A DNA stretch of 36,720 bases from Methanobacteriota archaeon (lineage in GTDB: Archaea > Thermoplasmatota > Poseidoniia > MGIII > CG-Epi1). Where the stretch lies: assembly GCA_014240055.1 (NCBI GenBank), contig JAAZXP010000007.1, forward strand, positions 1 through 36,720, in the 5' to 3' direction. The notes under the pieces were generated by a model. That model was not told where the DNA came from. It ran no database searches and saw nothing but the letters and a program-made list of their open reading frames with translations. Shown piece after piece: positions 12,527 through 36,472 of this stretch; position 1 is the stretch's first letter; each line of letters starts with the position of its first letter. The position numbers and the translations under genes are program-made.

Positions 12527-13525
12527 TTAGATAGTATTAGGTGTAGCTACAGCTTCATTCCATACTTTACAATTATAACAGCTACGTGTTAATGATTTAC
12601 CATTTCCATCAGCACCATCACTACTGGTGTAACTGAATGTATCTTCAAATGATCCTTTAGAGAGTATAAGAGTTTCATTTTTACCCAGCCCATTGCCGAT
12701 AGCATTGTCCTCTACAGAGAAAACATTTTCATAGTTTCCATATGTAGATTTATATGTGGTTGGTGATGTAGTTAATATGGCAACCTTTTTTGCAGGTATT
12801 ACGATTATATCGTCTTCATTTTCAGGTAATATCTTGTCTTTGTCCACATCATCTGCAATTACCCAATTTTCTAGATAAATTGCAGTTGGATTTGGATTAT
12901 ATACTTCAATCCATTCATAATCAATTCCAGTGTTAGTAGGATTATACATGACCTCTGTCAGGTATATTTTATTACCGAGGGTATTACCTTCAAAAACAGT
13001 TACAGTTAGTAATGAAGGTAGTAATTCAGAACCACTATTGTATAGCATATATCTTTCAGATTCAACACTTATTGAAGCTCCACTAGGGTCGCCACCCCAA
13101 ACACATACAGATTCATTTGGAACGATTGTACGAATTTCTATTCTTAGTTCCTGACTAACTTCTAATTCATTTCTTAAAGGATTATATGGAAATTTTCCTA
13201 AGGCTTCGCATTTATCCTTATCCAGATTTCCATTAGAATCCAGTAATCCTACAGTTATGCCATTTCTTAATTGTGATTCACCAGTTCCAAACTCGAAGTC
13301 TTCCCAGTTAGTCACATTATTAATTTTGCCTTGAGAACCAGTTAATTCAGAGATAACTTCTCTGGCCATAACAACACGATTGTCATTGTTATCCAAATCT
13401 ATGCCAATACGGTAATTCATGGCTGAAGTAAATGACTGAATCAGTAAAACAAAAATAGTTAGAGCCATTGTAAACTCAATAACGTGAGTAACGGCATCTT
13501 CAGTTTTGATTGTTCTTGGTTTCAT
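12527..13525 (-). CDS. Membrane-anchored protein with lamin-tail domain
   Basis: 332 residues from the ATG at 13525, which overlaps the permease stop as ATGA. A TTG 27 bases further up is possible but less likely. One hydrophobic helix near the N-terminus (about 15-35, HVIEFTMALTIFVLLIQSF) follows a basic/acidic lead, a layout like pilin-type or pseudopilin anchors. The C-terminal half has the lamin-tail (LTD) pattern: IYLTEVMYNPTNTGIDYEWI, EVYNPNPTAIYLENWVIADD and later IPAKKVAIL. LTD domains in secreted prokaryotic proteins are immunoglobulin-like. It is likely anchored with the LTD outside the cell. Its coupling to the ABC transporter suggests a shared export or cell-surface job. Confidence 0.72.
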   Translation of the reverse strand: MKPRTIKTEDAVTHVIEFTMALTIFVLLIQSFTSAMNYRIGIDLDNNDNRVVMAREVISELTGSQGKINNVTNWEDFEFGTGESQLRNGITVGLLDSNGNLDKDKCEALGKFPYNPLRNELEVSQELRIEIRTIVPNESVCVWGGDPSGASISVESERYMLYNSGSELLPSLLTVTVFEGNTLGNKIYLTEVMYNPTNTGIDYEWIEVYNPNPTAIYLENWVIADDVDKDKILPENEDDIIVIPAKKVAILTTSPTTYKSTYGNYENVFSVEDNAIGNGLGKNETLILSKGSFEDTFSYTSSDGADGNGKSLTRSCYNCKVWNEAVATPNTI

Positions 13526-14982
13526 CCTCTCATTTCCCTCTTGAAAAGCCATGTCGCTATTCTAAGGCATATTAATGGCCACAAGACAAGAGACAATAAA
13601 AGTAACCATCCCGGTACACCTTCGAAATCTATAGATATAGTTCTATGGGTAAATAGTCCTACTGCCATTTGATAAACAAACCCAGGATTGAGTAATGCTA
13701 ATCGAGATGCGATAGCTTGGTATTCAGGGTCATTTTCAAAATTTTGAGCAGATACATCTATACCAATAACAAAAGAAACTGCATAAACAAGCAAGGTCCA
13801 AACTACTGAGAATAACAACCATGCCCCTAATCCATAAATTACTACGTCAGCACCATTCTTTGCCGAAATTGCTAAACATAATTGGAAAGTAACCATAGTA
13901 AATATCATAAATTGTCCAAAAACTAAGAAAGTAACCATACATCCTACTGTGGGCATTTCTCCAGCTACAGTCATGAAATAAAGTCCTAAGACTTGTGCAA
14001 TAAAAGCAGGAACTCCAACTACCATTGTTAGCCCTAGTGCTTTACCAAGTATTATTGTTTCACGATTTATGGGTCTTGCTAAAAGCATATTCAAAGTATT
14101 CGATTGTCTTTCCTTATGAATTGTATCTACTGACACAGCAATTGCTGCCAATGAAACTACAAAGAAACTGAAGTAAGATAATCTCAGAATACCGTCATTT
14201 CCACTTGTTACAGCAAATACAGAGGTACTATTTTGTAAATCTCCTAAAAGCCATCCAATTCCGACAATAAATATAGTGAAAAAAGATCCCAAAACGATCA
14301 TTCGAGGAGCTTTTAGGCCTCTTCGAAATTCGAATAATGCTAAATGTTTAGCAAATTTTAATTGAGTTCTTAAATTTGGTATTCTGCTAAATGAGTAATA
14401 ACTACCTATTGCTAACAGAAGCAATTCGGTTCCAAAGAAATAATAATCAGTATCGGAAGCTAAGTGGATATCTTCAGGTATTGCTTCCCAACCTTCTCTA
14501 TTCAGTGTTATGTTTTGTCCATTTTCAGTATAGTATGAGGTATTTTCAATAACATAGGCTCTAACTGTCACAATTTCACTTTCAAAGAATTCTCCACTAA
14601 GGTCACCATTAACTAAAATTCTCATTCCACTCAAATTGATTATGGTTTTACCATACAAATCTTCATCATAAACTAAGGCTTCATCCTTAGAATATTGACC
14701 AACAACTATACTATCATTATTGTAAACTTCAAATTTAGGTGAAGTTACTAAGATACCTTTGAATGTGATACTATCTCCTACATTCTCAGGGAAGTTTATG
14801 TTCGTTTCATTATTTCCTTTAGTAACAGTTTTCCCTTTCCATATCTCTAATGGATTTGTTTCGGTAGTTAGCTCCCAGTGTGTTTTATGAACAATAGCAA
14901 CAACCATAACCAAAGAAATCGCAATAATCAGAGGCTGCCAGATTTTTAGTTTATTCCATTGATTTAATCTTCTACTAATCAC
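13522..14982 (-). CDS. ABC-2 type transporter permease with large outer loop
   Basis: 486 residues from a GTG at 14982. I chose this because a perfect GGAGGTG ribosome site ends 6 bases before it; a GTG 9 bases upstream lies inside that site. One N-terminal membrane helix (about 17-38) is followed by an extracytoplasmic domain of about 150 residues, then several helices in the last two thirds. The stretch TIHKERQSNTLNMLLARPINRETI is the cytoplasmic elbow typical of ABC-2/NatB-type permeases. Together with the preceding ATPase it would form an exporter. It overlaps the ATPase and the lamin-tail gene at its two ends. Confidence 0.83.
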   Translation of the reverse strand: MISRRLNQWNKLKIWQPLIIAISLVMVVAIVHKTHWELTTETNPLEIWKGKTVTKGNNETNINFPENVGDSITFKGILVTSPKFEVYNNDSIVVGQYSKDEALVYDEDLYGKTIINLSGMRILVNGDLSGEFFESEIVTVRAYVIENTSYYTENGQNITLNREGWEAIPEDIHLASDTDYYFFGTELLLLAIGSYYSFSRIPNLRTQLKFAKHLALFEFRRGLKAPRMIVLGSFFTIFIVGIGWLLGDLQNSTSVFAVTSGNDGILRLSYFSFFVVSLAAIAVSVDTIHKERQSNTLNMLLARPINRETIILGKALGLTMVVGVPAFIAQVLGLYFMTVAGEMPTVGCMVTFLVFGQFMIFTMVTFQLCLAISAKNGADVVIYGLGAWLLFSVVWTLLVYAVSFVIGIDVSAQNFENDPEYQAIASRLALLNPGFVYQMAVGLFTHRTISIDFEGVPGWLLLLSLVLWPLICLRIATWLFKREMRG

Positions 14983-16002: not shown

Positions 16003-17490
16003 GTGCCCGAATTTTGGAGATATCCATTTTTGCCAGCTGCAAGTAAAATTCTTGAAGGAGTTACATTAGATGCTCTTCTTAGTGATTACTTTTATGCAGA
16101 AGCTAGAGCACTTGCACTTACTCGTCTTGAGACTTCAGCTTCTTTAGGCATTATTGATGTAGAAGGTCCCCCAACTAATGATGAATCTGATATTGTTTTA
16201 GGATATGTAATTTCTAGATTGGTCTTAGCTGCAGCAGATAATCAAGCCTTAGTTAATTATGTTGCATTATCAGAAGCCAGGCGTGCAGAGCGTTATCTTT
16301 CTTCAGAAACTGATGAGAATTTAGTAAATTTTGTTAACCATTTTGATGCTATTAATGTTAAGCTGAATGGTTCTATTTTTGATATGAATTTTGTAGATTA
16401 CGTAAGGGCTGCTTCTAAGCTTCGTGAAGGAGACTGGAAGCTTTCCAACAGAGGCGTCAGCAAGGGAATTGTTAGCCTAGATCGTATAACATTGATCAGA
16501 CTAATGAGAGAGGTTATTCGACAACATCTTGAGGAATTACCTGAAGCTCCAGTAGAAATTAAGAAACAATTTGAAGGAACAATCGAAGAATTGAAATCCC
16601 AAATTTCTAAGACTTTTGTGGAGAGAATAGGTGGTTTGAATAATGTAGTTAGTGAAAGGCAGGCTGAGGCCATGAAGGAATTAGGCAAATTTGATCTTTC
16701 AAAGGCTCCACCTTGTTTTAATACAAATTTATTAGATTTACAAGCAGGAGTTAATCTTCCACATCCTTCACGTTTTTTTATAACAACTTTCCTTTCATCT
16801 TTAAACCAAAAATCTGAATCTGTAATGCAATTATTTGCCACAGCTCCAGATTTCAAAGAATCTTTTACACGTTATCAAGTTGAACACATAACTGGAACAA
16901 CTTCTAGTACAAAGTACAGCGCACCAAAATGTGATACATTAGTATCTACAGGAGTTTGCCAAGGTCCTAATGGATTATGTCGTCAAATACGTCATCCGTT
17001 GAGTTATTATCGTGTTATGGCTGAATCTGAAAAAGATGTAAAGGTCCGTTTAGAAAGAATTTTGTTAGCTGCATTGAACCGCGAAGAGTATCCTGCTAAA
17101 TTATTAGAAAGAAACATGGAAAAGTTTGGGGACTTTGATTTTTCTTATGGTGAAGAAATAGTTAAAAGGAAGTTGTCAGAAGCCATTAGATCTGATGAAA
17201 TCAGCAAAGTAAGTGTAAAGATCAGTCACTTTCAGGGTAGAGTATATTCTGTTGAAGTTCCAAATGAAGAACGTAAAATATGGATTACAAAAGCGGCATT
17301 GGGAATAACTGATGGCAATTCAGATTATGACTGTTTACCATTAACAGATTGGAAGTTAGCACTTCCGATTGGAGAAGCTCAATACAGGTCTAAATCAATG
17401 GATTTGATAGTTAAACCTTTTGAAATCAATATGGATGATAATGAGGTTCGAAAATTGTTCTTAATATTAGGAATTGTAGAAGAGTCTTAG
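16003..17490 (+). CDS. priL: DNA primase large subunit (PriL), with C-terminal extension
   Basis: Non-catalytic subunit of the archaeal/eukaryotic primase, needed for primer initiation. It starts with GTG, 20 bases after the TATA box, and begins MPEFWRYPFLPAASKI. Four cysteines that fit the C-terminal 4Fe-4S domain are at about 238, 310, 319 and 326 (APPCF, APKCD, TGVCQ, GLCRQ). They are separated by the PHPSRFFITTFLSSL and YQVEHITGTT regions of the family. The protein is 495 residues, longer than the common 330-400, and about 150 residues follow the last cysteine. That tail has no motif I know. The gene overlaps the convergent membrane-protein gene by 4 bases in the stop codons. Confidence 0.87.
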   Translation: MPEFWRYPFLPAASKILEGVTLDALLSDYFYAEARALALTRLETSASLGIIDVEGPPTNDESDIVLGYVISRLVLAAADNQALVNYVALSEARRAERYLSSETDENLVNFVNHFDAINVKLNGSIFDMNFVDYVRAASKLREGDWKLSNRGVSKGIVSLDRITLIRLMREVIRQHLEELPEAPVEIKKQFEGTIEELKSQISKTFVERIGGLNNVVSERQAEAMKELGKFDLSKAPPCFNTNLLDLQAGVNLPHPSRFFITTFLSSLNQKSESVMQLFATAPDFKESFTRYQVEHITGTTSSTKYSAPKCDTLVSTGVCQGPNGLCRQIRHPLSYYRVMAESEKDVKVRLERILLAALNREEYPAKLLERNMEKFGDFDFSYGEEIVKRKLSEAIRSDEISKVSVKISHFQGRVYSVEVPNEERKIWITKAALGITDGNSDYDCLPLTDWKLALPIGEAQYRSKSMDLIVKPFEINMDDNEVRKLFLILGIVEES

Positions 17491-18641
17491 ACTCGAATAC
17501 GTCTTCCACAACTACAGATGAATTTAGGTGTATTTTCATCAATATGATGTACAGTTTCACATGATGGACAGGTGATATTTTTGACACCTTTTCCCATATT
17601 CACATCGGAATCATCAGTTTTTGGAGGTGCTGCTTTTCTTACTACTTTTTTCTTTGTTATAGACTTCTTTGCAACGGTTTTCTTAATAGCTTTTTTCTTT
17701 GGAGCTGCTTTAGGTTCCTCTTTATCGCCCTTATCTTTTGTATCTTTTAGAGTTGCTCCTCCAGTTAATTTAGCTAATAATTCACTCTCATCAAAGTCTT
17801 CATCTTCTTCATCATCATCGTAATCTTCGTATTCTTCATCATCCTCGACTTCATCTTCTTCATCATCCGAATCTGCTTTTGAGTCCTCTAGGCGTTTTAA
17901 TTTTGATTCACTTGGTAATTCTGAATCATATCCTACTCCTGTCAAACTTTTACTTAATGGATTAACGCTTTCTTTGGTCTTATACAAACTAGCAGTTGTG
18001 TCTTCGGGTGCTAAAACAAACGTATAAATTCCAAAAGATAAAAGTATAATTCCAACGAGTCCTACTATAATCATGACCAAGTTATCCATAATTGGTGCAG
18101 GAAGTTCTGGAAGCGTAAAACCAGATGATGTCTCTTTAGCTGCAGCTTCATCTATGGTGAGTTGAATAGTTGTTCCAGCTCCAGTAATAACTGTTGAGGT
18201 TTTATTTGACATTACAATATTGAAACGAATGTCTCCTTTGTAACCATCGAAGTCAGCACTATCTGAATAGAATTTAGCTTCATATACATCATATTCACGT
18301 ATTTCACTGGCTTTAGGTTCAATGTAACGTGGTGCTGCACAGGCCCTACACGCATCCCTTGAATCATCATCACTTAAAAATTCTACATCGATGTTAATAT
18401 TGTATACTGAATATTCTTCGTCATCAGCATCATCACTGTACATGTATGCACCTTTAATATAAAATTCCAAGACAATATCAGTTCCATACGAGATTGAGGT
18501 GTTAACTTCAGCAACGACCAGATCCTCTTTAGATCCGTTCATATAAATTTCTACTAATCCTGCATTAGCTACAGGAAGAAATAAGATCGATAAAATAAAA
18601 CATAGTAGCGCAGTTTGAGTTAACTTATTTCTTTTAATCAT
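17487..18641 (-). CDS. Membrane protein with acidic and basic tail blocks and C-terminal zinc ribbon
   Basis: 384 residues, family not recognised. A signal peptide (about 1-27, cleavage after PVANA) leads to an extracytoplasmic domain (28-185) with acidic patches and a Cys pair (ACRAC, about 98-101). One membrane helix follows at about 187-210. The inside tail has an Asp/Glu run (about 253-288), then a Lys/Ala/Thr-rich block (about 310-338) like basic nucleic-acid-binding tails, and ends in a zinc-ribbon pattern (CPSC at 358-361, CSC at 376-378). The gene has a TATA-like box at 18669-18677. It may tether a nucleic-acid or protein-binding tail to the membrane, which is inference. Confidence 0.75.
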   Translation of the reverse strand: MIKRNKLTQTALLCFILSILFLPVANAGLVEIYMNGSKEDLVVAEVNTSISYGTDIVLEFYIKGAYMYSDDADDEEYSVYNINIDVEFLSDDDSRDACRACAAPRYIEPKASEIREYDVYEAKFYSDSADFDGYKGDIRFNIVMSNKTSTVITGAGTTIQLTIDEAAAKETSSGFTLPELPAPIMDNLVMIIVGLVGIILLSFGIYTFVLAPEDTTASLYKTKESVNPLSKSLTGVGYDSELPSESKLKRLEDSKADSDDEEDEVEDDEEYEDYDDDEEDEDFDESELLAKLTGGATLKDTKDKGDKEEPKAAPKKKAIKKTVAKKSITKKKVVRKAAPPKTDDSDVNMGKGVKNITCPSCETVHHIDENTPKFICSCGRRIRV

Positions 18642-23356: not shown

Positions 23357-26300
23357 TTGATAGACAAAAATAATCGGATAGTTAACGCCAGTGTTTTGTT
23401 GCTGATGGCATTTTTATTCGTTGTTTTTGTTGCAGATGATTCTGAAGCTGCGACTTACAAAGTTGATAGTTTAGGCGGTTCAGATTATACTAACATAACA
23501 CAAGCTGTCGAGAATGCATCTGCTGGAGACACAATTAATATCGCCTCTCGAAATTATTTTGATGCGGTAGATGTTGATAAGAGATTAACGATTATTGGTG
23601 GAAATTATGGTGTCAGCTTAAACAATTTGTATAATTATTGCTATGAGAACGATCTTATTGGATATTATACCTTTGATAATTCTGGAACCTATGTTAGTGA
23701 TAGGGTATGGTGTGAGAGTAACTATGGATATTTATCAGGGGCTGTTCGAACTCCCGGTTTTACTGGCGATTATTCAGTAGATTTTGACGGCGATGATGAT
23801 TATCTTGCAATAGATCATGATTCAGTCTATAATGTTTCTAAAGTTTCAATAAGTAGCTGGATTAATATCGATGATAATAATACTGATACCAGAACTATAT
23901 TTTCTAATTATCAAGAGGGGTCCACGCGTCATGGTTATGAAACATTTGTAAATGCTGACGCTAATTTCGGATTTCAATTTGGTTTTGGAAGTAGCTCAGG
24001 TTCATGTCACTCAGATACTGAAATCACTGAGAATAATTGGACACTTGTTACAGCCACTTATGACGGATCAAATATCAAATTATACATTAATGATGAATTA
24101 GATAAGACATGTGGCTATGCTCAGGGTATATCTGATAGTGATGGTAAACAAATTTTTGGGTCTTCAGACCATGATTCAGACAGCACCTATGATAATTTCT
24201 TTGATGGGACAATAGATGAACTGCTAATATGGAAGAAGGCATTAGGTCAGACAGATGTCGAAAATATTTATTGGGGTGGTAATGCAAAACCACGAATTAA
24301 TGCAAGTGAAGGTAGTTATGCCATAAGACTAACAGTTGACAATTCTGTTGTAAGAAATATTGAAGTTGCATTCACTGGCCCAGATATTGGCGAGAGTAGT
24401 GGAGATGCCGGTTTGGTAATTCAAGGTACGGATGGCGATCCAATAACTGGAGTTACAATTTCTGATGTGATATCAAAATATGATAGAAATGGTCTTAGAG
24501 TCTCTAATGCTAAAGATATATTCATTAATTCATTTAGTTCACAGGGATGTGATACTGGCAATGGCCTTAAGACAGGTGTAACTCTTTACAACGTAACAAG
24601 TTCTGAAATGTGGAATGGTCATGTGCAATGTGCTGAAACTGCAGGATACTTGTTTACTTCAGGAAGTAATAATAATATTTTTAATACGATTCAAGCATAT
24701 AGTTGTAAAGTAGGTTTCAAAGTAATATCTAATGGAAATTATTTCAATAATACTTATCTAGGCAACAATGACGATGTAGGTATTTTGTTTTATGGATCTG
24801 ATAACAATCAAATTAATGATGGAAATTACTATAGCAATAAATATGCCATAGGCTTCACACGAGGTGCTGAAAATAATCGGATCAAAAATCTAAACTTTGA
24901 TGATAATGATGATTATGATATTCACCACGGTTATGATTCAAACACAACTAGAAATGGTTGGAATAATATATTGATAGATACCGAATTTGAGGATTTATCT
25001 ATAGATTCCAATTCTAGACTTTTAGAGAAGACTCTGATAGAGACAACTATTACAGATAATGGAACCTATGCCTGGAATAGAGTCAATAAAACATTAGATA
25101 GTGATAGAAGGGCTTACTCAGGTACAAATTCTTTTTGGGCTGGAAATAGTGATGAGGATGAGTATTTTAGAAATTGGAATGTTACTTTCAAGATGAGTTC
25201 AGATATTAGTCTTCCTAGTGGAGGATTAGATGAATCTCGAATATTAGAGATAAGAACATGGTACAAGACAGAAGAAAATTTTGATGGTGGTAGAGTATAC
25301 ATTACCAAGGATCAAGAAAGTACTTGGAATCTCTTAACGCCTTTAGGTGGTTATGATAGTTTGATGAATGATGGTTCTGATTGTGATAATAACGAGAAAG
25401 CTTTTACAGGAGATAAATCGTCTTCTGATTGGCAAAATAAAAAGTTTAACTTATCTGGTTACAGAGGCGAAGATGTTCGAATAAAGTTTGTTTTCTGTAG
25501 TGATTCAGGCACGGAAATGGAAGGTTGGTACATCGATAATGTAAAAATTTACAAAGATGTGGATTCAACCAATGTTGCATATTTTGATGATTTCGAAAGA
25601 TTAGGTCATAGGTGGGTGGATGCTAGAGGCTGGGTCCATGAAGGAAATCCAGAATATGATGGAAAGAAAGATGCAGATATCATAATAATCGAAGATACTA
25701 GTTCCGAAACTTTAGTTAATAAATCAATCAATAAGGATATGAAGATTCATCTGAAATTAGATGAAAGCGGTACTAGTAGTGCATATGATTCTTTGGCAGG
25801 ACAATATTGGTATAGAGCTGGCAATACAAATTATGTTTCAGGATTGTATGGTAATGCAGCTAATTATGATGGGAGTGGAGATTCTCATTACTCCTCATAC
25901 GATTATATTTCAACGTCTCCTTATAGATTTGATGAACTAACAGTTTCAAGTTGGGTTAATTTTGATTCATTTCCATCTAGTAGTACTGATTATGACACGG
26001 TAGTAGCTATGGATAGAGAGGGTCAGTTTAGATTACAAGTTAATAGCAGCGGGAATCCTGTAGCTTATGGTTATTTTTATAGTCCTTCAGGTGAAAAAAG
26101 GGCTATTGGAGATGATGCATTAGTTACTGGTGTTTGGTATCATCTTGCAGCAACCTGGAGCGAGACTACAGACGATATCAAACTTTATGTTAATGGCACA
26201 TTAGTCAAAACTTATTCATTTTCAGAAACTACTCCTTATCTTCGAACTCTTAGTAGTTATATGTACATTGGAAGAGATTACAACGGCCATTACATGGATG

Positions 26301-29300
26301 GTAAAGTTGATAATGTACAAATTTGGCAAGAGGATTTCTCAGCCCGTAATATCAAAGCTATTTATGAGCATCCAATTAATGGACCTGTTCTTTATTCTAC
26401 AAAACATTATGGAGGTTCCGATAGTAAAACCGATAGTGAGGGTAAATTAGATGATATTTATGTAACAACTAAAATTTATGATGGCTCATCATCAGGTTCA
26501 GTAGTAGATACTTACATTGGTATTAGATATGGCGATTGGACGCGCGAAATTGCTAAGGCTACTATAACTGATAGTAAATTAGAAGCTAAGGTTTTTGATT
26601 TCCGTGTTTATAATCGTAATAAAGATAATCTGTATTATTCTTTGTCATCTGCAGTTTCCGGAGCTAGTAGTGGGAATACTCTCGAATTATGGCCTGGGAA
26701 GTATAAAGAAAATATAGAGGTCACGACAAAGATTGCTATACTAGGGGCTGGGACAACTAGAACGATTATTGATGCGAGATATCGAGGTCCAGCACTCAAA
26801 TTCACTAATTACCAAACTGATTATTCATCAGTTAAAAATTTACGAGTTACTCATTCCTCTAACCAATCCAGCAGTTGCCAGTCTTCTGCTCAATATGGAG
26901 GGGCAATATATTCATACTATTCAGATTTTCTAACAATTGATAATGTTCATTTCTTTGAAACCTATATTGGTTATATGTCATGTTATGCAAATGATAATAC
27001 AATTAAAAATTCAGTATTTGATAGAGGTTCTATCAGCAGTTATCATTCTGGAATATATTCTTATGGCGGCATTAATTACGATATAAGAAATAATGTAATT
27101 ACAAAATATTCATATGGTCTGTATCTTTATTATAATAATTACGGTTCACACTTTTTTAATAATTCTATCCATAATAATACTAATTATGGGATATACCTGT
27201 ATTATTCCGGTCACTCTAGTTACGCTAGTGATCCTCTTATTTTCGAAAAGAATAGTCTAGTTGACAATAATTATGGTTTTTACAGAGGAGACACTTCTAG
27301 TAATTATGGCCGATACATCCAATTTAAAGATAATTTAGTTAAAAGTAATTCTAATTATGGGATATATTGTTATTATTATTGCCAAGATTGGAAAGTAGAA
27401 AACAATACGTTTGATGGTGATGACGATCAAACTTATGGCTGGTACACTTATAGATACCAATATAGAACCGAATTCGGAAATAATACTTTTAGAGACCACA
27501 CAAGTAAAGATATTTATCTTCAATATTGTGGAACTGGAACTAATGCTAATAAATTCTTTTACAACACTTATTCTACTATTACAGTTTCATCCGGTTGTCA
27601 AGTTGATATTTACAATAATCTTAATGTAAAGACTGTAGAAGAAGATAGTGATGCTTTTTCTAATGTAGAAATTGAAATTAAAGATAGTTCTAAGACTTAT
27701 TACGAAACTTCACAATGGGGTGGTTCAGATTCTTTAACGGATAGTAATGGTTTTATTTCTAGTTCGATGCTTATACGCTCAGGATATTATGCCTCTAGTT
27801 CAACTCTAACTGATAATAATATTACTGTTAATTTGGCTTATGGGGTCAGGGCAAAATCTACTTGGATTAATTTTGATACTGATACTACTAAGGCCGTTAC
27901 AGTTCCCGACGCTTTCCGTCTCGGTGTTGTTAAAAATACAAATACTAGCACAATTTACACTAGTTTTTCTTCTGCAGTCAATGCTGCAAGCACAAATAAT
28001 GTTCTAAATATTTGGGCGTGGACTTATAATGAAAATTTTGTAATAAATAAAGGAATTACAATAATTGGTAATTCAACAGCTAGTTCGATCATAAACGGTG
28101 GAACTGGAGACTACGCAATTGAGGTCAAATCTAACGGCGTCACAATTAAGAATTTAACACTGAACGGCGCTTCCGATAGTTTACTTTATGCTGGAAATTA
28201 TAATAATCTTGAAGTTGAAAACGTAGTTATGGGTTCTAGTTCCTCTAATTATGGAATTTATTTTGATAGAACAAGTGATACTACTATAACAAGCGTAACT
28301 GTAAATGATACAGATCGTAAATCAGTTTACATTGATGACGGAGATACGATTACCTTCAAGAATAGTTATTTCATGAATTCTTCTTCTTCACATGGTTTTG
28401 AAATTTCAGATAGTGAGGATATAATACTAGATAATGTTTTCATTTACAATGCTGGTTATGATGGTTCCTCAGCCTATGGATTGTATGTTTCAGGAAGTGA
28501 TAAAGTCACGATTAAGGGCACTACAAAGGTGGGCTCTAGTAAATCGTATGAGCTTTATGCGACATCCTCAACAAATTTGAAAATATATAATTCTACATTT
28601 ACAGGTAAAAATTTAGCTTTAATTGAAGACTCAGATAGCTTTTTGGTGGAAAACAGTGTTTTCAAAGATACTTCCAGCGGCGATAATGGCGTTTACATCA
28701 AAAATACAGATAGTGGAATCTTTAAATTTAATACAATAACAAATTCGGCATCAGATGGCACTTCTGATTTTGGTTCGATATATTTGACTAGTTCATCTTC
28801 TAATCAAATTTTGAATAATACAGTTACCAATTCAGGAAGATCAGGAATTCATCTTAAGTCTAGTTCAAATGATAACAAGATTTATGGAAATACAGTATCT
28901 TCAAGTAATTTACATGGTCTTTATGTTCAATCCTCTGATAATACGTTAGTTCGAAACAACTCATTTTCAAGTTCGAGTATTTATGGAATAAAAATTTCAA
29001 GTTCTGATAATGTTGTAATTGATAACAATACATTAGATTCGAATTCTAATTATGGTATTTATCTTTCTTCATCAGATACTGGAATTATTAAGACTAATAC
29101 TATTTCTGATAATCAAGGTGGAATATATATCACCGGTTCAGACGATGTAATTATTTCTTCGAATACCATAGATGATCATTCATTATATGGTGCATATCTT
29201 GCAGATTCGAAAAGAGTTAAGATTAAGAAAAATGTAATCAAGAACAGTCAAAGTGATGCCTTAGTTCTTTCCTCAAGTTGTGATAATGCGTACATTGATA

Positions 29301-32300
29301 ACAATACAATAAAGAACAATGGTTTAACATCCTCAGGAAGAGCTGTGAAATTGTATGAGGTTGATAACTCGGTATTGTATAATAATTCAATTGAATCTAA
29401 CGAATACACTGGAATGTCTATTGTTGCATCTAATAACAATAAAATCATTCAAAACATAGTAAAAGGTAATGGAAAATATGGGATATCGGTAAGTAATGAT
29501 TTTACCAAATCTGCTAATAATACAATCAAATCTAATACTATTAATGATAATGAAGATCACGGAATTTACAATTTAGGTATCTATACCAAAATAATCAATA
29601 ACACGATTAAATATAATGAAAAGGATGGTATTAACATACAATCTGCAGGCGCTAGAACAAGTATTGAACAGAATACAATTACTGATAATGAAGATAATGC
29701 AATAAGCATTTTGGCCAATTATGTAGTAATTAAGTTGAACACGATTGATGGTGCAACTTCCGATAGTGCAATCAATGGCCTCAATTCTAAATCTATATCT
29801 ATAACGAATAACACGATTGAGGGTGGTCTTCAGGGAATTAAGATTTCGAATGGTACGAATTCTTTCATCTACAATAACACTATAACATCTAATTCCGAAA
29901 CTGGAATTTACTTATTGGGAGGATCTCATTCAAGTGAAATAAAATTAAATACAGTTAAGGATAATGAAGATGTAGGAATTCATGTTTTAAGTTCGGATTT
30001 AGTAGTAGTTAAGAATAATATTATTGAAGACAATAATGGATATGGAATTTATGGTTTCAATTCTAAGTTACTTGAATTTCAAATTAACACAATTAAAGAT
30101 AACGATGGAGGGGTAAAGTTCAGTAATTGTGATTATTGTAATTTAACTTCGCTAACTATTTCTGATAACGGTGGAAGGGGTATTTGGTTCTTAAGTGGTT
30201 CTGATAATAATTACATTAAGCATGTGACTTCTTCCAGTAATAGTATTAAAGATGTATATATTCAAGATTCAAATCATAATACTGCTTTTAATTTTACATT
30301 TTCAACAATTTCACTAAATACAAATGCGACACTTACAATTACTTCAAATTTGGAAATTGTATTCCAAGATGGTGGTGGAGATCCATTTGAAGGCATTGAT
30401 TTCGCACTATTGACTGCCGGTGTCAAGGTGTATTCTACACCTTTCTATGGTGGTTCTGATGCAGTTTCAGATTCCAACGGTGAAGCTGGAGCTACATTCT
30501 CTCTTAACTATAGAATTTACAACGGTAGTTCAACGCCAGACACAATTTCTAACATAATTAAGTATCACTATGGTGTGAGAAGTAAAGAAAAATCAATTGA
30601 TATGAGTACTTCCCATACTGAAACAGTTTCAGTACCTTCCTATTGGGTAAAAGGTCTTGTTAGAAATACAGACTCAAGTACAGATTACTATAAGATCCAA
30701 GATGCTATAGACAATGCTTCTTCTGGCGATACTTTACATATTTGGGCATGGAAATATAGTGAGAATGTAGAAGTTGATGAGAGTATAACAATAATTGGTA
30801 ATGGAACTGGAAATACAACTCTGAATGCAACATCTAGTGGTAAGGGTTTCGATATAACTTCAGATGATGTTACAATAAGAAATATTAATGTTGAAGGCTG
30901 TGGTAGTACAGATTCTTACAATGGTTTCCAGTTGTCTGGAGATGATATTACTATCGAAAATGTAATAGTTAAGACGTGTTACAGAGGTGCAGCCATAGGA
31001 GGTTCAGGTGCTTGGATAGGCAATTCTACATTTTCAAATAACTCCAATAACGGTATTGAAGTGTTTATTGGGGATACTTCTACTACTGCAGTTAAGATTT
31101 ACAAGAATACATTATGGTGGAACGGCAATCATGGTATCAGGAGTCTTGAAGATGATGTAATTATAAGCGCCAATAATATTAGAAATAATACCGAAAATGG
31201 AATTTATTTAAGTGGTGCTGAAGATGCAGTTATTTCAGATAACATTATTGTTGATAATAAAGATAATATAGATATTTACAGCGATTCAGCACGTACACTG
31301 ATTAAGAATAATTTGGTATCCAGTGCAACTTCATATGGCATGAGAATCGACGGTACTGCTTCAAATAATATTATAATTGAAGGTAATACAGTCCAAAATA
31401 ATGGTGTAGATGGAATATATATCAAACATTCCGATTATTTCTATCTAGGAAACAATACAATTTCAGGAAGTGGAACTTTTGATTTAAGGTTCTCTGCAAC
31501 TACTATTGGTAATTCTGCTAAGAATACCACTTTCTCAACTATTTCAGTTCATTCAAATGCTTATTTTGCAATTTACAATGATTTAACATTGAAGTTCATG
31601 CAAAATGCTACAGTTGGCTTTGATGAATTAGATGTTAAACTTGTTAGTGATAGTTCTACTAAGTATGCAACTTCTTACTATGGTGGCAGTGACTCTAAGA
31701 CAAATACCAATGGATTAATTAGTACAAATTTCACTTTAAAATTCAGAATATATGATGGAACCTCTACACCTGATGAAGCAACTACAACATTGTATTATCA
31801 TTATGGAGTTCGTGCTAAGGCTTACAATCTGAATATGACGACTTCTCATACAGAGACAGTATCAGTTCCTTCATATTGGAAAGATGGTTTAGTTGAGAAT
31901 TTGGATAGTGGTCTGAAATCTGCAAGTATACAGGATGCTATAGACAATGCATCCTCTGGCGATACACTGAAACTATGGTCCTGGAATTATGTTGAAAGTG
32001 ATATTGAAATAAATGAAAGAGTGACTATTATCGGTAATTCATCAGGAACAGTATCAATTAGTGCCAACTGGGAGAATTCAGTATTTAATATTCAAACAAA
32101 TACTATAACTTTGAAGAATTTGACTCTCAAGAGAAGTAGTAATTCTACTGATGAAGCTTGTATCAAAACTACAGTAGGTACTGGAATATTGATAGATAAT
32201 GTATTGATGAATAATTGTGGTATTGGTATTTTAGTCAAGACCAGTAATGTAGTTATTTCTAATGTTACTATTGAAGATTCAGTAACTGATGGAATAGTTG

Positions 32301-35300
32301 TCAAAAATACAGCTAGTAATGTACGAATTGAGAATTCAACAATTAAGAGAAGTGGAGATGATGGAGTCCAACTTGAGTCTAATGTTTATCTTTACAATAA
32401 TACAATTTCGTCGAATACCAATAGAGGAATTTATGTTATATCAGGTTCAGATTATGCTAAGATTAGGTACAATACAATAGACGACAATGATGAACAAGGA
32501 GTCTATGTTTTCGGTGTACATCATGTTGAGATTAGAAATAATGTAATTGAAGATAATGAAAATTATGGAATACAATTAAAAGATGCTAATTTTACACAAA
32601 TAAGAGATAATACAGTTGATGATAATGATGGTGGTTTGAGAACAGAATCGACATATAATTGTAATATTACAGGAAGTACTTTCAAAAATAATAATGGTAA
32701 AGGAATTTGGTTTACCACTACTTCAAATGGAAATAATATTAGAGACACAGTTGCTACGGGAAGTTCAAGTAATGATATTGAATTAGATGATTCTAAGAAG
32801 AATACTGGATTTAATTTCACATTTGGTTCAGGGAGTATCGATGTTGATTCAGATTCAGATTTCCGTGTGATGAATACTTTGAATATTAAGTTTACAAATG
32901 GTTCAGAGGCATTTGCAGGTGTAGATCTAGAATTATTCAATTATGATACCATTGTTTATGCAACTCCATTTTACAGCGGTAATGATGCTGTTTCATCAGC
33001 TACTGGATTTATCAGTGGTGAATTGACTGTTGCTTACGAGATTTACAACGGAAGTTCTACTACTGAAGATGTGGATACGACTCTCAAGTATCACTATGGT
33101 GTAAGAGGTAAATCAATAGATGTGGATACAGGAACTTCACATACTGAAATCGTGGATGTTCCTTCATATTGGACGAAAGGACTTGTTAGGAATACGGATA
33201 CAAGCACAGATTACTACAAGATTCAATATGCAATAGACAATGCTTCAGCCGGAGATACACTGAACATTTGGGCCTGGACATATTATGAGAATATTGAGAT
33301 TAGTAAGGAATTAACAGTAATTGGCAATGGAACTGGAGATACAACAATTAATGGTAGCTTTATAGATAATACGATTAAAATAACAGCAAGTGATGTAGAA
33401 TTAAGTTATTTTACTGTAATAGGTGGAGGAAATAGTACAAATACTAAAAGTGGAATTCACTTAAGTGGAAGTGATATTAAACTTTCAAACTTAGTTATCG
33501 ATTATGGTTATCAAGGTTTGTATACCTCTGGTTCTTCTAATACAGTATCTTATACAATTATCAAAAACCAGGACAGAGATGGTTTGCTTGTGCAGGGAAC
33601 TACATTTACTTTAATGAATTCCACAATATCTGATAATGGTTATCATGGATTATATTTCAATACGGGTGGTTCAGGTTCATTCATATACAATAATACTATA
33701 GAAAATAGTGGTGGAAGAGGAGTATACATTTCCCAGTCATCTAATATTAGAATTTCCTTTAACACAATTACAGATTCCTCTGGAAATGATGCTAGTGATA
33801 GTGGAGCAGGAATTTGGATTGAAGGTTATTTATCACAAAACATTAGAATATTAAATAATACAATTAAAGATAACAAACATGGAATACATAGTTGGTCCGG
33901 AGGTCAGGGGCCAAGTGATATTTCAGTTATTGGTAACCAAATAAGTGATAATGAGAAATATGGTATTAAGATAACAAAGAATTCAACGCATTGGAAACTT
34001 TGGAATAATACTATAACAGACAATGATGAATACGATATTTCTTTTTCAGATACTGGTTCAGATAATAATTATGCAGTTAATACCGAATTTGATACAATAT
34101 ATGTAAATTTTGGATCATCGCTTACAATTAGAGAATATTTAGTATTAGATGTAAATGATGCTTCTGGAGCTAATATGAGTGGTATTGACATCAAAGTTAT
34201 GGAAGACGATGTCCAGAAGTATGCAACTGATTACTTTGGCGGTAGTGATCCTAAGACAGATTCATCGGGAACTATTGCAACTTTCTTGATAAATTCAATG
34301 AAGTATGATGGTAGTTCAACCCCTACAACAATACCAACCTATGTTACAGCTAGAAATCACGACTGGGTTGAAACTTTCACATCTGATCCTTCTTCTACAG
34401 TAGATATAACTGTTCCAGATCTCCGTGTTCAAAATATAAGGACTGGAACTTTAACTTATCATATCCAGACATCCATTGATGCAGCTGAAGAAGGAGATAC
34501 AGTAAGGGCTTGGAATGGCACTTACTATGAAAATATTGATATTACTGAAGAGTTGGCATTGAAAGGTAATGGAACCTCTACAATAATTAATGGAAATAGT
34601 GGTAATGCAATTGAAGTTAGTGAAGATAGTGTTACCATTACAGATATACAAATAGTATCTTCAGAAAATGGAATTTATCTAAATGGTATTGATGATTTAA
34701 GAGTTTATAATATAAAGTTTGTAAATAATGAACATGGTCTTTATGTTGAAGACTCAACAAATCTTGTTCTTAATAACAGTATATTTGATGTGGATGATTA
34801 TGGAGTTTACTTCACGGGTACATCTGGTTCTATAGTTAGAGATAATTCTTTCCGTAACGGAACAGATGCTGGAAATTATTGTATTTATCAATCAGAGTCT
34901 GATTCAAATGGTAATACACAAATTATAGGCAATACTTTCAACGACTGTTATACAGCTTGGAAATCTAGTAGTAATGCGAATACATTTAGAGATAATACAC
35001 TAAAAGATAACCAATATGGAGTTTTACTTGCCGGTACTGCATCCCATGATAATCTGATAAAAGATAATACATTTGATGATTCTGATACTGCAATATACAT
35101 TTACAATACAGCTCATGACAACATTATTTTTGAGAATAGCTTTGATGATTCTGATGATTATGATATCAAATTAAGTGATTCTTATGATACAGTATCCTAT
35201 AACAATACATTTTCTTCAATTTCAGTAGCTTCAGATTCCAATATGTGGATTAAGGTGTATCTTGACCTAACCGTCTCTGATAATGCAAGTAATGCCTTTT

Positions 35301-36472
35301 CAAATGTAGATGTTGAAGTCAAACAAGATAATTTAGTTGTTTATTCATCAACATATTTCAGCGGCGACGATCCTAAGACAAATACCACTGGTCAAATTTC
35401 GACCTTCCTAGTGGCTACTTCTCAATACAATGGAAGTTCAACACCAACTGCAGTTACTACTACAATTACTGCACGTTATTCGGATTGGATTTCTTCAAGT
35501 GCTTACAACATAAATAATGCAGTATCTCTAAATGTAGCTGATTTCAGAGTTCAAAATCAAGATTCCGAAATAATGTATTATTCGATTGGTGGGGCAATTA
35601 ATGCAGCTAATACTGGCGATACACTTTCAATTTGGAAAGGTACTTACTATGAAAACATTATTATAACTAAAGAGATAACTCTTGTAGGAAATGGAACCTC
35701 TCAAACAATAATCAATGGTAGTTTATCAGGTACTGTTGTTACGGTTGATGCTGATGAAGTGGTAATCGATAATTTAGCGATTATTTCTAGTGGTTCTGAT
35801 GGGTTTGGTTTATTAGTTTCAGAGGGAGATGGAGAATATAAGAATCTAAAACTATCTTATAACAATGTATCTTATTCTTCAATTGGTGACTTTAATGAGT
35901 TGTCATCCAGTGTTATAACGAATAGCAATTTTGGAGTTATAATAAATGGAGATAATAACGTAGTTACTCAGAATACTTTTTCAGATAATCAATACTCAAT
36001 ACACTTTGCTTATACTTCAGAAGATAGTAGGGCAGACAACAATGAAATTACTGATGGGACTCATGCAGGTATTTCTTTGCATGGTACTGAAGAAATAACT
36101 ATTAGAGATAATTATATTCACAATAACTCGGGATACGGTATCCGATTGACAGGCTCTGCTGAAGAGAACATCATTTTCAATAATGATTTAGATTATAACT
36201 CTCTTTACTCAATATATATTTATGAATCTGGAAACAATTCAATACATAATAATACCTTCAAGTCAAACGATGATGGTCCAGTTTTCATAGAGAATTCTTA
36301 CAATAATATTGTACAAGATAATGCTTTCAATGCTAATGATGATTATTTGACCATTGATGGTGGAGGTCAAAATAGTATATTGTTTAACACATTTGCAGAA
36401 AGTGGTATACTTCTTCAAAATGCTAATAACCAAATTATTACAGGGAATACAATAACCGATGCTTCAGCCTGA
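23357..36472 (+). CDS. Giant secreted modular beta-helix protein (4371 residues) with LamG and InhA-like domains
   Basis: One uninterrupted frame from a TTG start. A signal peptide (about 1-32, SVLLLMAFLFVVFVA, cleavage near DSEA) is followed by a beta-helix N-cap (33-90). Next come a LamG/concanavalin-like domain (about 99-312), a beta-helix (about 313-550) and an InhA/MAM-like domain (about 554-752; ends GWYIDNVKIYKD). A second LamG follows (about 795-1005). From 1009 on, right-handed parallel beta-helix blocks of NosD/pectate-lyase type alternate with seven spacers of about 170 residues. Helix coils recur as N-N-T-I ... G-I-Y-L, giving Asn ladders and many N-glycosylation sequons. No catalytic motif is evident. 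It is likely an extracellular adhesin, glycan-binding protein or surface fibre. It ends ITGNTITDASA without a C-terminal membrane helix or sorting signal, so how it is held on the cell is unclear. It may be 3'-truncated. Confidence 0.9.
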   Translation: MIDKNNRIVNASVLLLMAFLFVVFVADDSEAATYKVDSLGGSDYTNITQAVENASAGDTINIASRNYFDAVDVDKRLTIIGGNYGVSLNNLYNYCYENDLIGYYTFDNSGTYVSDRVWCESNYGYLSGAVRTPGFTGDYSVDFDGDDDYLAIDHDSVYNVSKVSISSWINIDDNNTDTRTIFSNYQEGSTRHGYETFVNADANFGFQFGFGSSSGSCHSDTEITENNWTLVTATYDGSNIKLYINDELDKTCGYAQGISDSDGKQIFGSSDHDSDSTYDNFFDGTIDELLIWKKALGQTDVENIYWGGNAKPRINASEGSYAIRLTVDNSVVRNIEVAFTGPDIGESSGDAGLVIQGTDGDPITGVTISDVISKYDRNGLRVSNAKDIFINSFSSQGCDTGNGLKTGVTLYNVTSSEMWNGHVQCAETAGYLFTSGSNNNIFNTIQAYSCKVGFKVISNGNYFNNTYLGNNDDVGILFYGSDNNQINDGNYYSNKYAIGFTRGAENNRIKNLNFDDNDDYDIHHGYDSNTTRNGWNNILIDTEFEDLSIDSNSRLLEKTLIETTITDNGTYAWNRVNKTLDSDRRAYSGTNSFWAGNSDEDEYFRNWNVTFKMSSDISLPSGGLDESRILEIRTWYKTEENFDGGRVYITKDQESTWNLLTPLGGYDSLMNDGSDCDNNEKAFTGDKSSSDWQNKKFNLSGYRGEDVRIKFVFCSDSGTEMEGWYIDNVKIYKDVDSTNVAYFDDFERLGHRWVDARGWVHEGNPEYDGKKDADIIIIEDTSSETLVNKSINKDMKIHLKLDESGTSSAYDSLAGQYWYRAGNTNYVSGLYGNAANYDGSGDSHYSSYDYISTSPYRFDELTVSSWVNFDSFPSSSTDYDTVVAMDREGQFRLQVNSSGNPVAYGYFYSPSGEKRAIGDDALVTGVWYHLAATWSETTDDIKLYVNGTLVKTYSFSETTPYLRTLSSYMYIGRDYNGHYMDGKVDNVQIWQEDFSARNIKAIYEHPINGPVLYSTKHYGGSDSKTDSEGKLDDIYVTTKIYDGSSSGSVVDTYIGIRYGDWTREIAKATITDSKLEAKVFDFRVYNRNKDNLYYSLSSAVSGASSGNTLELWPGKYKENIEVTTKIAILGAGTTRTIIDARYRGPALKFTNYQTDYSSVKNLRVTHSSNQSSSCQSSAQYGGAIYSYYSDFLTIDNVHFFETYIGYMSCYANDNTIKNSVFDRGSISSYHSGIYSYGGINYDIRNNVITKYSYGLYLYYNNYGSHFFNNSIHNNTNYGIYLYYSGHSSYASDPLIFEKNSLVDNNYGFYRGDTSSNYGRYIQFKDNLVKSNSNYGIYCYYYCQDWKVENNTFDGDDDQTYGWYTYRYQYRTEFGNNTFRDHTSKDIYLQYCGTGTNANKFFYNTYSTITVSSGCQVDIYNNLNVKTVEEDSDAFSNVEIEIKDSSKTYYETSQWGGSDSLTDSNGFISSSMLIRSGYYASSSTLTDNNITVNLAYGVRAKSTWINFDTDTTKAVTVPDAFRLGVVKNTNTSTIYTSFSSAVNAASTNNVLNIWAWTYNENFVINKGITIIGNSTASSIINGGTGDYAIEVKSNGVTIKNLTLNGASDSLLYAGNYNNLEVENVVMGSSSSNYGIYFDRTSDTTITSVTVNDTDRKSVYIDDGDTITFKNSYFMNSSSSHGFEISDSEDIILDNVFIYNAGYDGSSAYGLYVSGSDKVTIKGTTKVGSSKSYELYATSSTNLKIYNSTFTGKNLALIEDSDSFLVENSVFKDTSSGDNGVYIKNTDSGIFKFNTITNSASDGTSDFGSIYLTSSSSNQILNNTVTNSGRSGIHLKSSSNDNKIYGNTVSSSNLHGLYVQSSDNTLVRNNSFSSSSIYGIKISSSDNVVIDNNTLDSNSNYGIYLSSSDTGIIKTNTISDNQGGIYITGSDDVIISSNTIDDHSLYGAYLADSKRVKIKKNVIKNSQSDALVLSSSCDNAYIDNNTIKNNGLTSSGRAVKLYEVDNSVLYNNSIESNEYTGMSIVASNNNKIIQNIVKGNGKYGISVSNDFTKSANNTIKSNTINDNEDHGIYNLGIYTKIINNTIKYNEKDGINIQSAGARTSIEQNTITDNEDNAISILANYVVIKLNTIDGATSDSAINGLNSKSISITNNTIEGGLQGIKISNGTNSFIYNNTITSNSETGIYLLGGSHSSEIKLNTVKDNEDVGIHVLSSDLVVVKNNIIEDNNGYGIYGFNSKLLEFQINTIKDNDGGVKFSNCDYCNLTSLTISDNGGRGIWFLSGSDNNYIKHVTSSSNSIKDVYIQDSNHNTAFNFTFSTISLNTNATLTITSNLEIVFQDGGGDPFEGIDFALLTAGVKVYSTPFYGGSDAVSDSNGEAGATFSLNYRIYNGSSTPDTISNIIKYHYGVRSKEKSIDMSTSHTETVSVPSYWVKGLVRNTDSSTDYYKIQDAIDNASSGDTLHIWAWKYSENVEVDESITIIGNGTGNTTLNATSSGKGFDITSDDVTIRNINVEGCGSTDSYNGFQLSGDDITIENVIVKTCYRGAAIGGSGAWIGNSTFSNNSNNGIEVFIGDTSTTAVKIYKNTLWWNGNHGIRSLEDDVIISANNIRNNTENGIYLSGAEDAVISDNIIVDNKDNIDIYSDSARTLIKNNLVSSATSYGMRIDGTASNNIIIEGNTVQNNGVDGIYIKHSDYFYLGNNTISGSGTFDLRFSATTIGNSAKNTTFSTISVHSNAYFAIYNDLTLKFMQNATVGFDELDVKLVSDSSTKYATSYYGGSDSKTNTNGLISTNFTLKFRIYDGTSTPDEATTTLYYHYGVRAKAYNLNMTTSHTETVSVPSYWKDGLVENLDSGLKSASIQDAIDNASSGDTLKLWSWNYVESDIEINERVTIIGNSSGTVSISANWENSVFNIQTNTITLKNLTLKRSSNSTDEACIKTTVGTGILIDNVLMNNCGIGILVKTSNVVISNVTIEDSVTDGIVVKNTASNVRIENSTIKRSGDDGVQLESNVYLYNNTISSNTNRGIYVISGSDYAKIRYNTIDDNDEQGVYVFGVHHVEIRNNVIEDNENYGIQLKDANFTQIRDNTVDDNDGGLRTESTYNCNITGSTFKNNNGKGIWFTTTSNGNNIRDTVATGSSSNDIELDDSKKNTGFNFTFGSGSIDVDSDSDFRVMNTLNIKFTNGSEAFAGVDLELFNYDTIVYATPFYSGNDAVSSATGFISGELTVAYEIYNGSSTTEDVDTTLKYHYGVRGKSIDVDTGTSHTEIVDVPSYWTKGLVRNTDTSTDYYKIQYAIDNASAGDTLNIWAWTYYENIEISKELTVIGNGTGDTTINGSFIDNTIKITASDVELSYFTVIGGGNSTNTKSGIHLSGSDIKLSNLVIDYGYQGLYTSGSSNTVSYTIIKNQDRDGLLVQGTTFTLMNSTISDNGYHGLYFNTGGSGSFIYNNTIENSGGRGVYISQSSNIRISFNTITDSSGNDASDSGAGIWIEGYLSQNIRILNNTIKDNKHGIHSWSGGQGPSDISVIGNQISDNEKYGIKITKNSTHWKLWNNTITDNDEYDISFSDTGSDNNYAVNTEFDTIYVNFGSSLTIREYLVLDVNDASGANMSGIDIKVMEDDVQKYATDYFGGSDPKTDSSGTIATFLINSMKYDGSSTPTTIPTYVTARNHDWVETFTSDPSSTVDITVPDLRVQNIRTGTLTYHIQTSIDAAEEGDTVRAWNGTYYENIDITEELALKGNGTSTIINGNSGNAIEVSEDSVTITDIQIVSSENGIYLNGIDDLRVYNIKFVNNEHGLYVEDSTNLVLNNSIFDVDDYGVYFTGTSGSIVRDNSFRNGTDAGNYCIYQSESDSNGNTQIIGNTFNDCYTAWKSSSNANTFRDNTLKDNQYGVLLAGTASHDNLIKDNTFDDSDTAIYIYNTAHDNIIFENSFDDSDDYDIKLSDSYDTVSYNNTFSSISVASDSNMWIKVYLDLTVSDNASNAFSNVDVEVKQDNLVVYSSTYFSGDDPKTNTTGQISTFLVATSQYNGSSTPTAVTTTITARYSDWISSSAYNINNAVSLNVADFRVQNQDSEIMYYSIGGAINAANTGDTLSIWKGTYYENIIITKEITLVGNGTSQTIINGSLSGTVVTVDADEVVIDNLAIISSGSDGFGLLVSEGDGEYKNLKLSYNNVSYSSIGDFNELSSSVITNSNFGVIINGDNNVVTQNTFSDNQYSIHFAYTSEDSRADNNEITDGTHAGISLHGTEEITIRDNYIHNNSGYGIRLTGSAEENIIFNNDLDYNSLYSIYIYESGNNSIHNNTFKSNDDGPVFIENSYNNIVQDNAFNANDDYLTIDGGGQNSILFNTFAESGILLQNANNQIITGNTITDASA
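23453..23610 (+). repeat. N-terminal half-copy of the spacer (beta-helix N-cap)
   Basis: Encodes YTNITQAVENASAGDTINIA followed by a LTIIGGN ending. It matches the second half of the internal spacers (I..AIDNASSGDTL.IW.W.Y.EN ... TIIGN), so it is an eighth copy of the helix-starting cap. It lacks the preceding beta-sandwich part. Confidence 0.65.
26381..26760 (+). repeat. Spacer repeat 1 of the giant gene (type A)
   Basis: Begins GPVLYSTKHYGGSDSKTDSE, contains IRYGDWTR and FDFRVYNRN, and ends with the cap GNTLELWPGKYKENIEV. It follows LamG 2 directly and lacks the capping strand seen before later copies. Confidence 0.7.
27560..28080 (+). repeat. Spacer repeat 2 of the giant gene (intermediate type)
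   Basis: Starts with the capping strand NTYSTITV, has WGGSDSLTDSNG and YGVRAKSTW, and ends LNIWAWTYNENFVINKGITI. The YGVRAK and VTVPDAF parts are nearer to type B. Confidence 0.7.
30290..30810 (+). repeat. Spacer repeat 3 of the giant gene (type B)
   Basis: Capping strand NFTFSTISL, then FYGGSDAVSDSNGEAG, YHYGVRSKEKSIDM, SHTETVSVPSYWVKGLVRN and the cap AIDNASSGDTLHIWAWKYSE. Protein-level identity to repeats 4 and 5 is high, while third codon positions differ. Confidence 0.8.
31521..32049 (+). repeat. Spacer repeat 4 of the giant gene (type B)
   Basis: Capping strand NTTFSTISV, YYGGSDSKTNTNG, YHYGVRAKAYNLNM, SHTETVSVPSYWKDGLVEN, and cap IQDAIDNASSGDTLKLWSWN. Confidence 0.8.
32805..33340 (+). 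repeat. Spacer repeat 5 of the giant gene (type B)
   Basis: Capping strand NFTFGSGSIDV, FYSGNDAVSSATG, YHYGVRGKSIDVD, SHTEIVDVPSYWTKGLVRN, cap AIDNASAGDTLNIWAWTYYE. The YGGSD motif is changed to YSGND here. Confidence 0.8.
34075..34580 (+). repeat. Spacer repeat 6 of the giant gene (type A)
   Basis: Capping strand NTEFDTIYV, YFGGSDPKTDSSG, STPTTIPTYVTARNHDW, VPDLRVQN, cap EEGDTVRAWNGTYYENIDI and KGNGTSTIING. Confidence 0.75.
35201..35700 (+). repeat. Spacer repeat 7 of the giant gene (type A)
   Basis: Capping strand NNTFSSISV, YFSGDDPKTNTTG, STPTAVTTTITARYSDW, VADFRVQNQ, cap NTGDTLSIWKGTYYENIIIT and VGNGTSQTIING. It is the nearest relative of repeat 6. The helix block after it is the last one. 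Confidence 0.75.

Follow-up and report, generated by a model that had tools for sequence, protein, structure and literature searches.

The gene at 17487-18641 of the window (the whole analysed stretch of 36,720 nucleotides, from a Marine Group III archaeal genome) encodes a membrane protein that belongs to a conserved, Marine Group III-wide family. Its tail combines an acidic block, a short LTG motif, a lysine-rich block and a predicted C-terminal zinc ribbon. Tentatively, we regard the protein as a single-pass membrane adaptor found throughout Marine Group III, in which the lysine block would most likely bind nucleic acid and the ribbon and LTG motifs would dock proteins. The earlier note gave the open reading frame without a strand; it is read from the minus strand and converges on priL, the two genes sharing 4 bases at their 3' ends. 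The features are as follows.

16003..17490 (+), priL, DNA primase large subunit (Pfam DNA_primase_lrg), the convergent neighbour
17487..18641 (-), whole gene, ATG start, encoding a 384-residue type I membrane protein
18561..18641 (-), signal peptide, about residues 1-27; probable cleavage between VANA and GLVE, judged from sequence
18096..18560 (-), outer domain, residues 28-182, predicted Ig-like beta-sandwich
18339..18350 (-), Cys pair of the CRAC motif (C98, C101), not conserved
18009..18086 (-), single membrane helix, about residues 186-211 (hydropathy 2.72 over 188-206; helix 188-210 in the model)
17901..18008 (-), juxtamembrane stretch, residues 212-247, conserved and containing the motifs APEDTT and NPLSKSLTGVGY
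17790..17900 (-), acidic block, residues 248-284, 25 D/E of 37 and 3 K/R
17760..17795 (-), FDESELLAKLTG motif, residues 283-294, with a short helix (285-292) predicted by AlphaFold2
17619..17717 (-), Lys/Ala-rich block, residues 309-341, 14 K/R of 33 and 1 D/E, in H1/HC2-like order
17490..17585 (-), C-terminal zinc ribbon, residues 353-384, CPSC-x14-CSCGRRIRV

From the N- to the C-terminus the protein thus consists of the signal peptide, the outer domain, one membrane helix, the juxtamembrane stretch, the acidic block, FDESELLAKLTG, the Lys/Ala block and the terminal CPSC-x14-CSC ribbon. The layout that the earlier note had described (signal peptide, helix, acidic and lysine blocks, ribbon) is present in full and is kept in all 12 aligned orthologues. 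Structure prediction, proposed there as a check, agrees with it: the full-length AlphaFold2 model (mean pLDDT 65.7) contains an outer domain of β-strands, a helix over the membrane segment, a disordered tail of low confidence and a small, confident β fold at residues 350-384. The hydrophobic segment of the signal peptide is retained in the orthologues, and a helix is predicted by AlphaFold2 at residues 4-20. A signal peptide followed by one helix, with a CxxC/CxC ribbon on the tail, points to a cytoplasmic tail and an extracellular outer domain, as had been assumed before; this topology is predicted from the sequence.

The isolated outer domain is modelled by AlphaFold2 with a pLDDT of 84.1 and a pTM of 0.76. 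Structure comparison with the PDB returns generic β-sandwich matches only. More specific folds (RhoGDI, NPC2, antibody, glycosidase) were considered and rejected, with r.m.s.d. values of about 4.5 or more and matches that vary between models. In a Pfam scan the domain matches no family, and PKD, CARDB and FG-GAP are all absent from the 384-residue protein. The cysteine pair to which attention had been drawn is real in the window protein, but it occurs in only 6 of 12 orthologues and at two different alignment positions.

The charge distribution of the tail was compared with a census of 1,017 non-overlapping open reading frames, drawn from 1.17 Mb of stretches (some overlapping) plus the window, out of a 1.23 Mb genome. 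The protein holds the highest net-acidic 40-residue window of the census and shares the top place for net-basic 30-residue windows with five others; several of its peers in net basic charge are ribosomal-protein-like, as identified by eye. It is the sole frame of the 1,017 to exceed both the acidic and the basic threshold, these having been set with the protein already in view. The charge architecture is more than chance. Two further basic tails were seen in the same genome: one protein (L119:17079-17993 (-)) has a membrane helix and a 57-residue Lys-rich tail (16 K/R) without a ribbon, and another (L178:3672-4352 (-)) has a membrane helix followed by a 72-residue RG/RGG-rich tail with 15 K/R and no D/E.

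At the DNA level the acidic block consists of imperfect repeats of 24-27 bp (at 17788-17868), and its length ranges from 21 to 39 residues across the 12 orthologues. In the same genome, acidic-only tails occur on many type I membrane proteins besides this one. Some of these are ribbon-tailed without a Lys block, and several have neither ribbon nor Lys block. The earlier suggestion that the acidic block masks the Lys block is weakened by these observations. Because acidic tails without a Lys block are common in the same genome, the block does not appear to be specifically a mask for the Lys block, although a masking role in this protein is still compatible with the data.

The FDESELLAKLTG motif that follows contains four residues (E285, L289, L292 and T293) that are invariant in 12 of 12 orthologues. 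It does not represent a widespread LTG linear motif: DNA-pattern searches of 60 and 293 genomes returned only the protein's own family, a soluble protein of two genomes, one MGII gene and chance hits. In the soluble protein, which is also from Marine Group III, FDES-x-LAKLTG is again followed by a Lys stretch, giving an acidic/motif/Lys module. This protein (L080:1501-2091 (-), homologues L081-L087) carries motif and Lys stretch in genomes G007 and G009, the motif being missing from the homologues of other genomes; its C-terminus appears winged-helix-like by eye and has no Pfam match. The MGII gene, from genus g13 (L096, L097, L018/L098), encodes in order a SAP-like segment (judged by eye), an acidic stretch, FDASE-x-x-AS-x-TG, a membrane helix and an outer domain. 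A relationship of the FDASE element to the LTG module is a lead rather than a result, because chance hits occur in the pattern search at a similarly low rate. L018 and L098 are the same gene of MGII genome G034, in which the frame breaks after the helix, unlike in G424 and G432.

The Lys/Ala block had been likened to DNA-binding tails, and the likeness extends to residue order as well as composition. The whole protein scores 18.7 bits (E 0.0021) against Histone H1-like HC2 (PF07382), under the curated Pfam cut-off of 40 bits. The Lys block itself gives an E-value of 0.0053, and since none of five shuffled blocks gives a match, order contributes to the similarity. The block shares a KKAxKKxVAKK-type order with the Lys/Ala tails of HC2 and AlgP, but differs from them in being one short block carried by a membrane protein. 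In a sample of 21 Poseidoniia genomes, neither histone (PF00808) nor HU (PF00216) was detected; 14 of them have Alba (PF01918), which was not found in the window's own, incomplete genome.

The C-terminal ribbon is modelled as four strands (353-357, 364-368, 373-375 and 381-383) with a pLDDT of about 81-87. Its four cysteines (C358, C361, C376 and C378), H365 and the KFIC-x-CGRRIR segment are invariant in 12 of 12 orthologues. Four putative metal-ligand cysteines in two knuckles on a small β fold correspond to the general description of a zinc ribbon, and zinc binding is predicted from sequence and model together. No convincing relative of the ribbon was found among solved structures. The closest named family is Zn_ribbon_4 (PF13717), which scores 14.1 bits for the whole protein and 19.0 bits for the ribbon alone, below the curated cut-off of 30.3. 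This family includes heliorhodopsin fusions (PMC8612252) that resemble the present case in having a four-Cys ribbon on a membrane protein in related archaea. The spacing here is CxxC-x14-CxC, however, and the ribbon is C-terminal, whereas it is N-terminal in the heliorhodopsin fusions.

At least five other proteins of the same genome (L120, L137, L139, L152 and L201, the ribbon of the last read by eye) combine an outer domain, a helix and a ribbon on the tail. The plan of outer domain, helix, linker and ribbon is found also in MGII (L035) and in another Thermoplasmatota family (L056), and the 384-residue protein, with its signal peptide, outer β-domain, single helix and C-terminal ribbon, follows it. 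Such unnamed ribbon-tailed surface proteins of Thermoplasmatota (L139, L120, L035, L056) have one or more outer β-domains, a helix near the C-terminus, a hydrophilic linker and a ribbon at or near the end. Their outer domains, where matched, are CARDB, PKD or FG-GAP (L120, L139, L056) and their ribbons are of the CxxC...CxxC type; the window protein differs in its outer domain without a family, its Lys block, its LTG motifs and its CxC-GRRIR ribbon. Of the other ribbon-tailed proteins in the window's genome, only L152 likewise combines acidic tail residues with a short KKKRK. The earlier statement that no named family has this order holds for the exact order, which is unmatched in Pfam and NCBIfam, but not for the general plan, which recurs in the genome, in MGII and in other Thermoplasmatota. 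What sets the protein apart is its acidic/LTG/lysine module together with a ribbon of the CSCGRRIR type. Among eukaryotic proteins TRAP alpha has a likeness of plan only, and to our knowledge it has no zinc ribbon; the TRAP families give no match to the protein in a Pfam scan (E <= 1). TRAP alpha, part of a ribosome-translocon complex, is likewise of type I, with a signal peptide, a single membrane pass and a cytosolic C-terminus (PMC7276530).

Relatives are present in 17 of the 21 genomes of the protein's own GTDB family, its own genome included. Two of the 17 are contig-end fragments, and two extra hits (f2 and f3) that cover little beyond the acidic region were left out of the count; the four genomes without a match are 60-70% complete. 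Distribution among marine archaea, named earlier as a point to check, is borne out by a scan of named records, in which the hits were to Marine Group III and to other Euryarchaeota/Poseidoniia MAGs. No MGII relatives of the protein were found, and a viral origin is rejected on the ground that no relative was found in IMG/VR. When 243 genomes of the phylum were searched with a profile, just two further matches appeared, both to the ribbon region: L056 has a signal peptide and a membrane helix, and in L055 no membrane segment was seen. The latter (L055:1-1641 (+), from another Thermoplasmatota family) is a coiled-coil protein that has a near-identical CSCGRRIR ribbon at its end and another ribbon upstream of it. 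Mean pairwise identity among the 12 orthologues is 0.73 for the ribbon, 0.68 for the juxtamembrane stretch and 0.40 for the outer domain. As the first two are conserved far above the third, the cytoplasmic face is the constrained part of the protein. In the charged blocks sequence and length drift while charge is retained (15-27 D/E in the acidic block, 12-18 K/R in the basic one). All tail blocks are kept in the 12 intact-frame orthologues, down to 30% identity, and a high-GC genus has an extra Cys-rich segment ahead of the ribbon.

The pairing with priL is conserved in Marine Group III; in MGII it is absent, and priL is followed by another gene. Because the two genes are convergent, not co-transcribed, and the pairing is missing in MGII, priL provides no functional link to replication, and such a link was rejected. 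Elsewhere in the window, a 4,371-residue open reading frame with a TTG start (23357-36472 (+)) contains repeated right-handed β-helix-like segments (DNASSGDTL...IWAW-x-Y-x-ENI) and appears by eye to encode a giant surface protein. A Lamin tail domain protein (12527-13552 (-); PF00932, E 4e-12) directly adjoins an ABC-2 transporter gene.

In the adaptor reading the signal peptide would place the small β-sandwich outside the cell and leave some 175 cytoplasmic residues, most of them disordered. The Lys/Ala block would bind nucleic acid, be it RNA, ribosomes or chromosomal DNA, which are indistinguishable here. Such binding is taken as its most likely role because of the HC2-like order and because no histone or HU was detected in the sampled genomes. 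The retention of basic charge in all 12 orthologues, the ribosomal-protein-like peers in the census, and the recurrence of the module in the soluble Marine Group III protein and of a related element in MGII also speak for this reading. The terminal ribbon and two LTG motifs (SLTGVG beside the membrane and FDESELLAKLTG past the acidic block) would dock protein partners; that the ribbon probably acts on proteins follows from the other membrane-protein ribbons of the genome, which lack a Lys block. The main role of the acidic block would be that of an extended, negatively charged spacer, holding the Lys block away from the anionic membrane and perhaps tuning its binding.

The main rival, which we consider somewhat unlikely, is a surface adaptor that docks proteins only. 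The ribbon and LTG motifs would bring proteins of the cytoplasm to an outer domain with a sensor or adhesion role, and the charged blocks would only determine how far the tail reaches and how soluble it is, or else bind acidic proteins. The ribbon plan recurs with widely differing linkers and with outer domains as unlike as CARDB, PKD and FG-GAP, which fits a ribbon that is a docking module, and partner recruitment has been suggested for zinc_ribbon_4-type fusions on membrane proteins of Thermoplasmatales, among them heliorhodopsins (PMC8612252). This reading leaves unexplained, however, a block of 12-18 K/R that is present in every orthologue and so rare elsewhere in the genome. Since Lys-rich stretches can bind any polyanion, the block might instead contact the anionic inner leaflet, MARCKS being the comparison case for Lys-rich membrane binding, or polyphosphate in an AlgP-like manner, with the tail looping back and the acidic block setting the electrostatic balance. 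AlgP, an H1-like protein, is reported to be tied to polyphosphate granules (PMC9239181). We think this improbable, as an acidic block between the membrane and the Lys block would oppose contact and the residue order is like that of H1-type tails, unlike aromatic/Lys membrane-binding segments. Least probable of these rivals is a mostly passive spacer, expanded in its acidic and Lys stretches by repeat slippage and functional only at the juxtamembrane motif and ribbon. It would suit the repeats, the variable length of the acidic block and the commonness of acidic-only tails. Against it, every orthologue retains separate acidic and basic blocks with LTG between them, even in the high-GC genus, where identity is down to 30%.

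A bolder form of the nucleic-acid reading, to which we give little credence at present, is that the protein is a membrane-bound, H1-tail-like nucleic-acid anchor, and that acidic/LTG/Lys is a reusable unit tying the chromosome or polysomes to the cell surface in a lineage without detected histone or HU. The soluble Marine Group III protein and, in a related form, the MGII protein with the SAP-like segment would be further carriers of this unit. Marine Group III is uncultured, and how it organizes membrane, chromosome and ribosomes is the wider question. If true, the combination of an outer domain with a histone-tail-like block would represent a testable candidate for a link between membrane and nucleic acid in archaea without detected histones or HU. 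Even if the protein docks other proteins only, it brings to light a class of surface proteins with zinc-ribbon tails that recurs in Thermoplasmatota and has no name so far.
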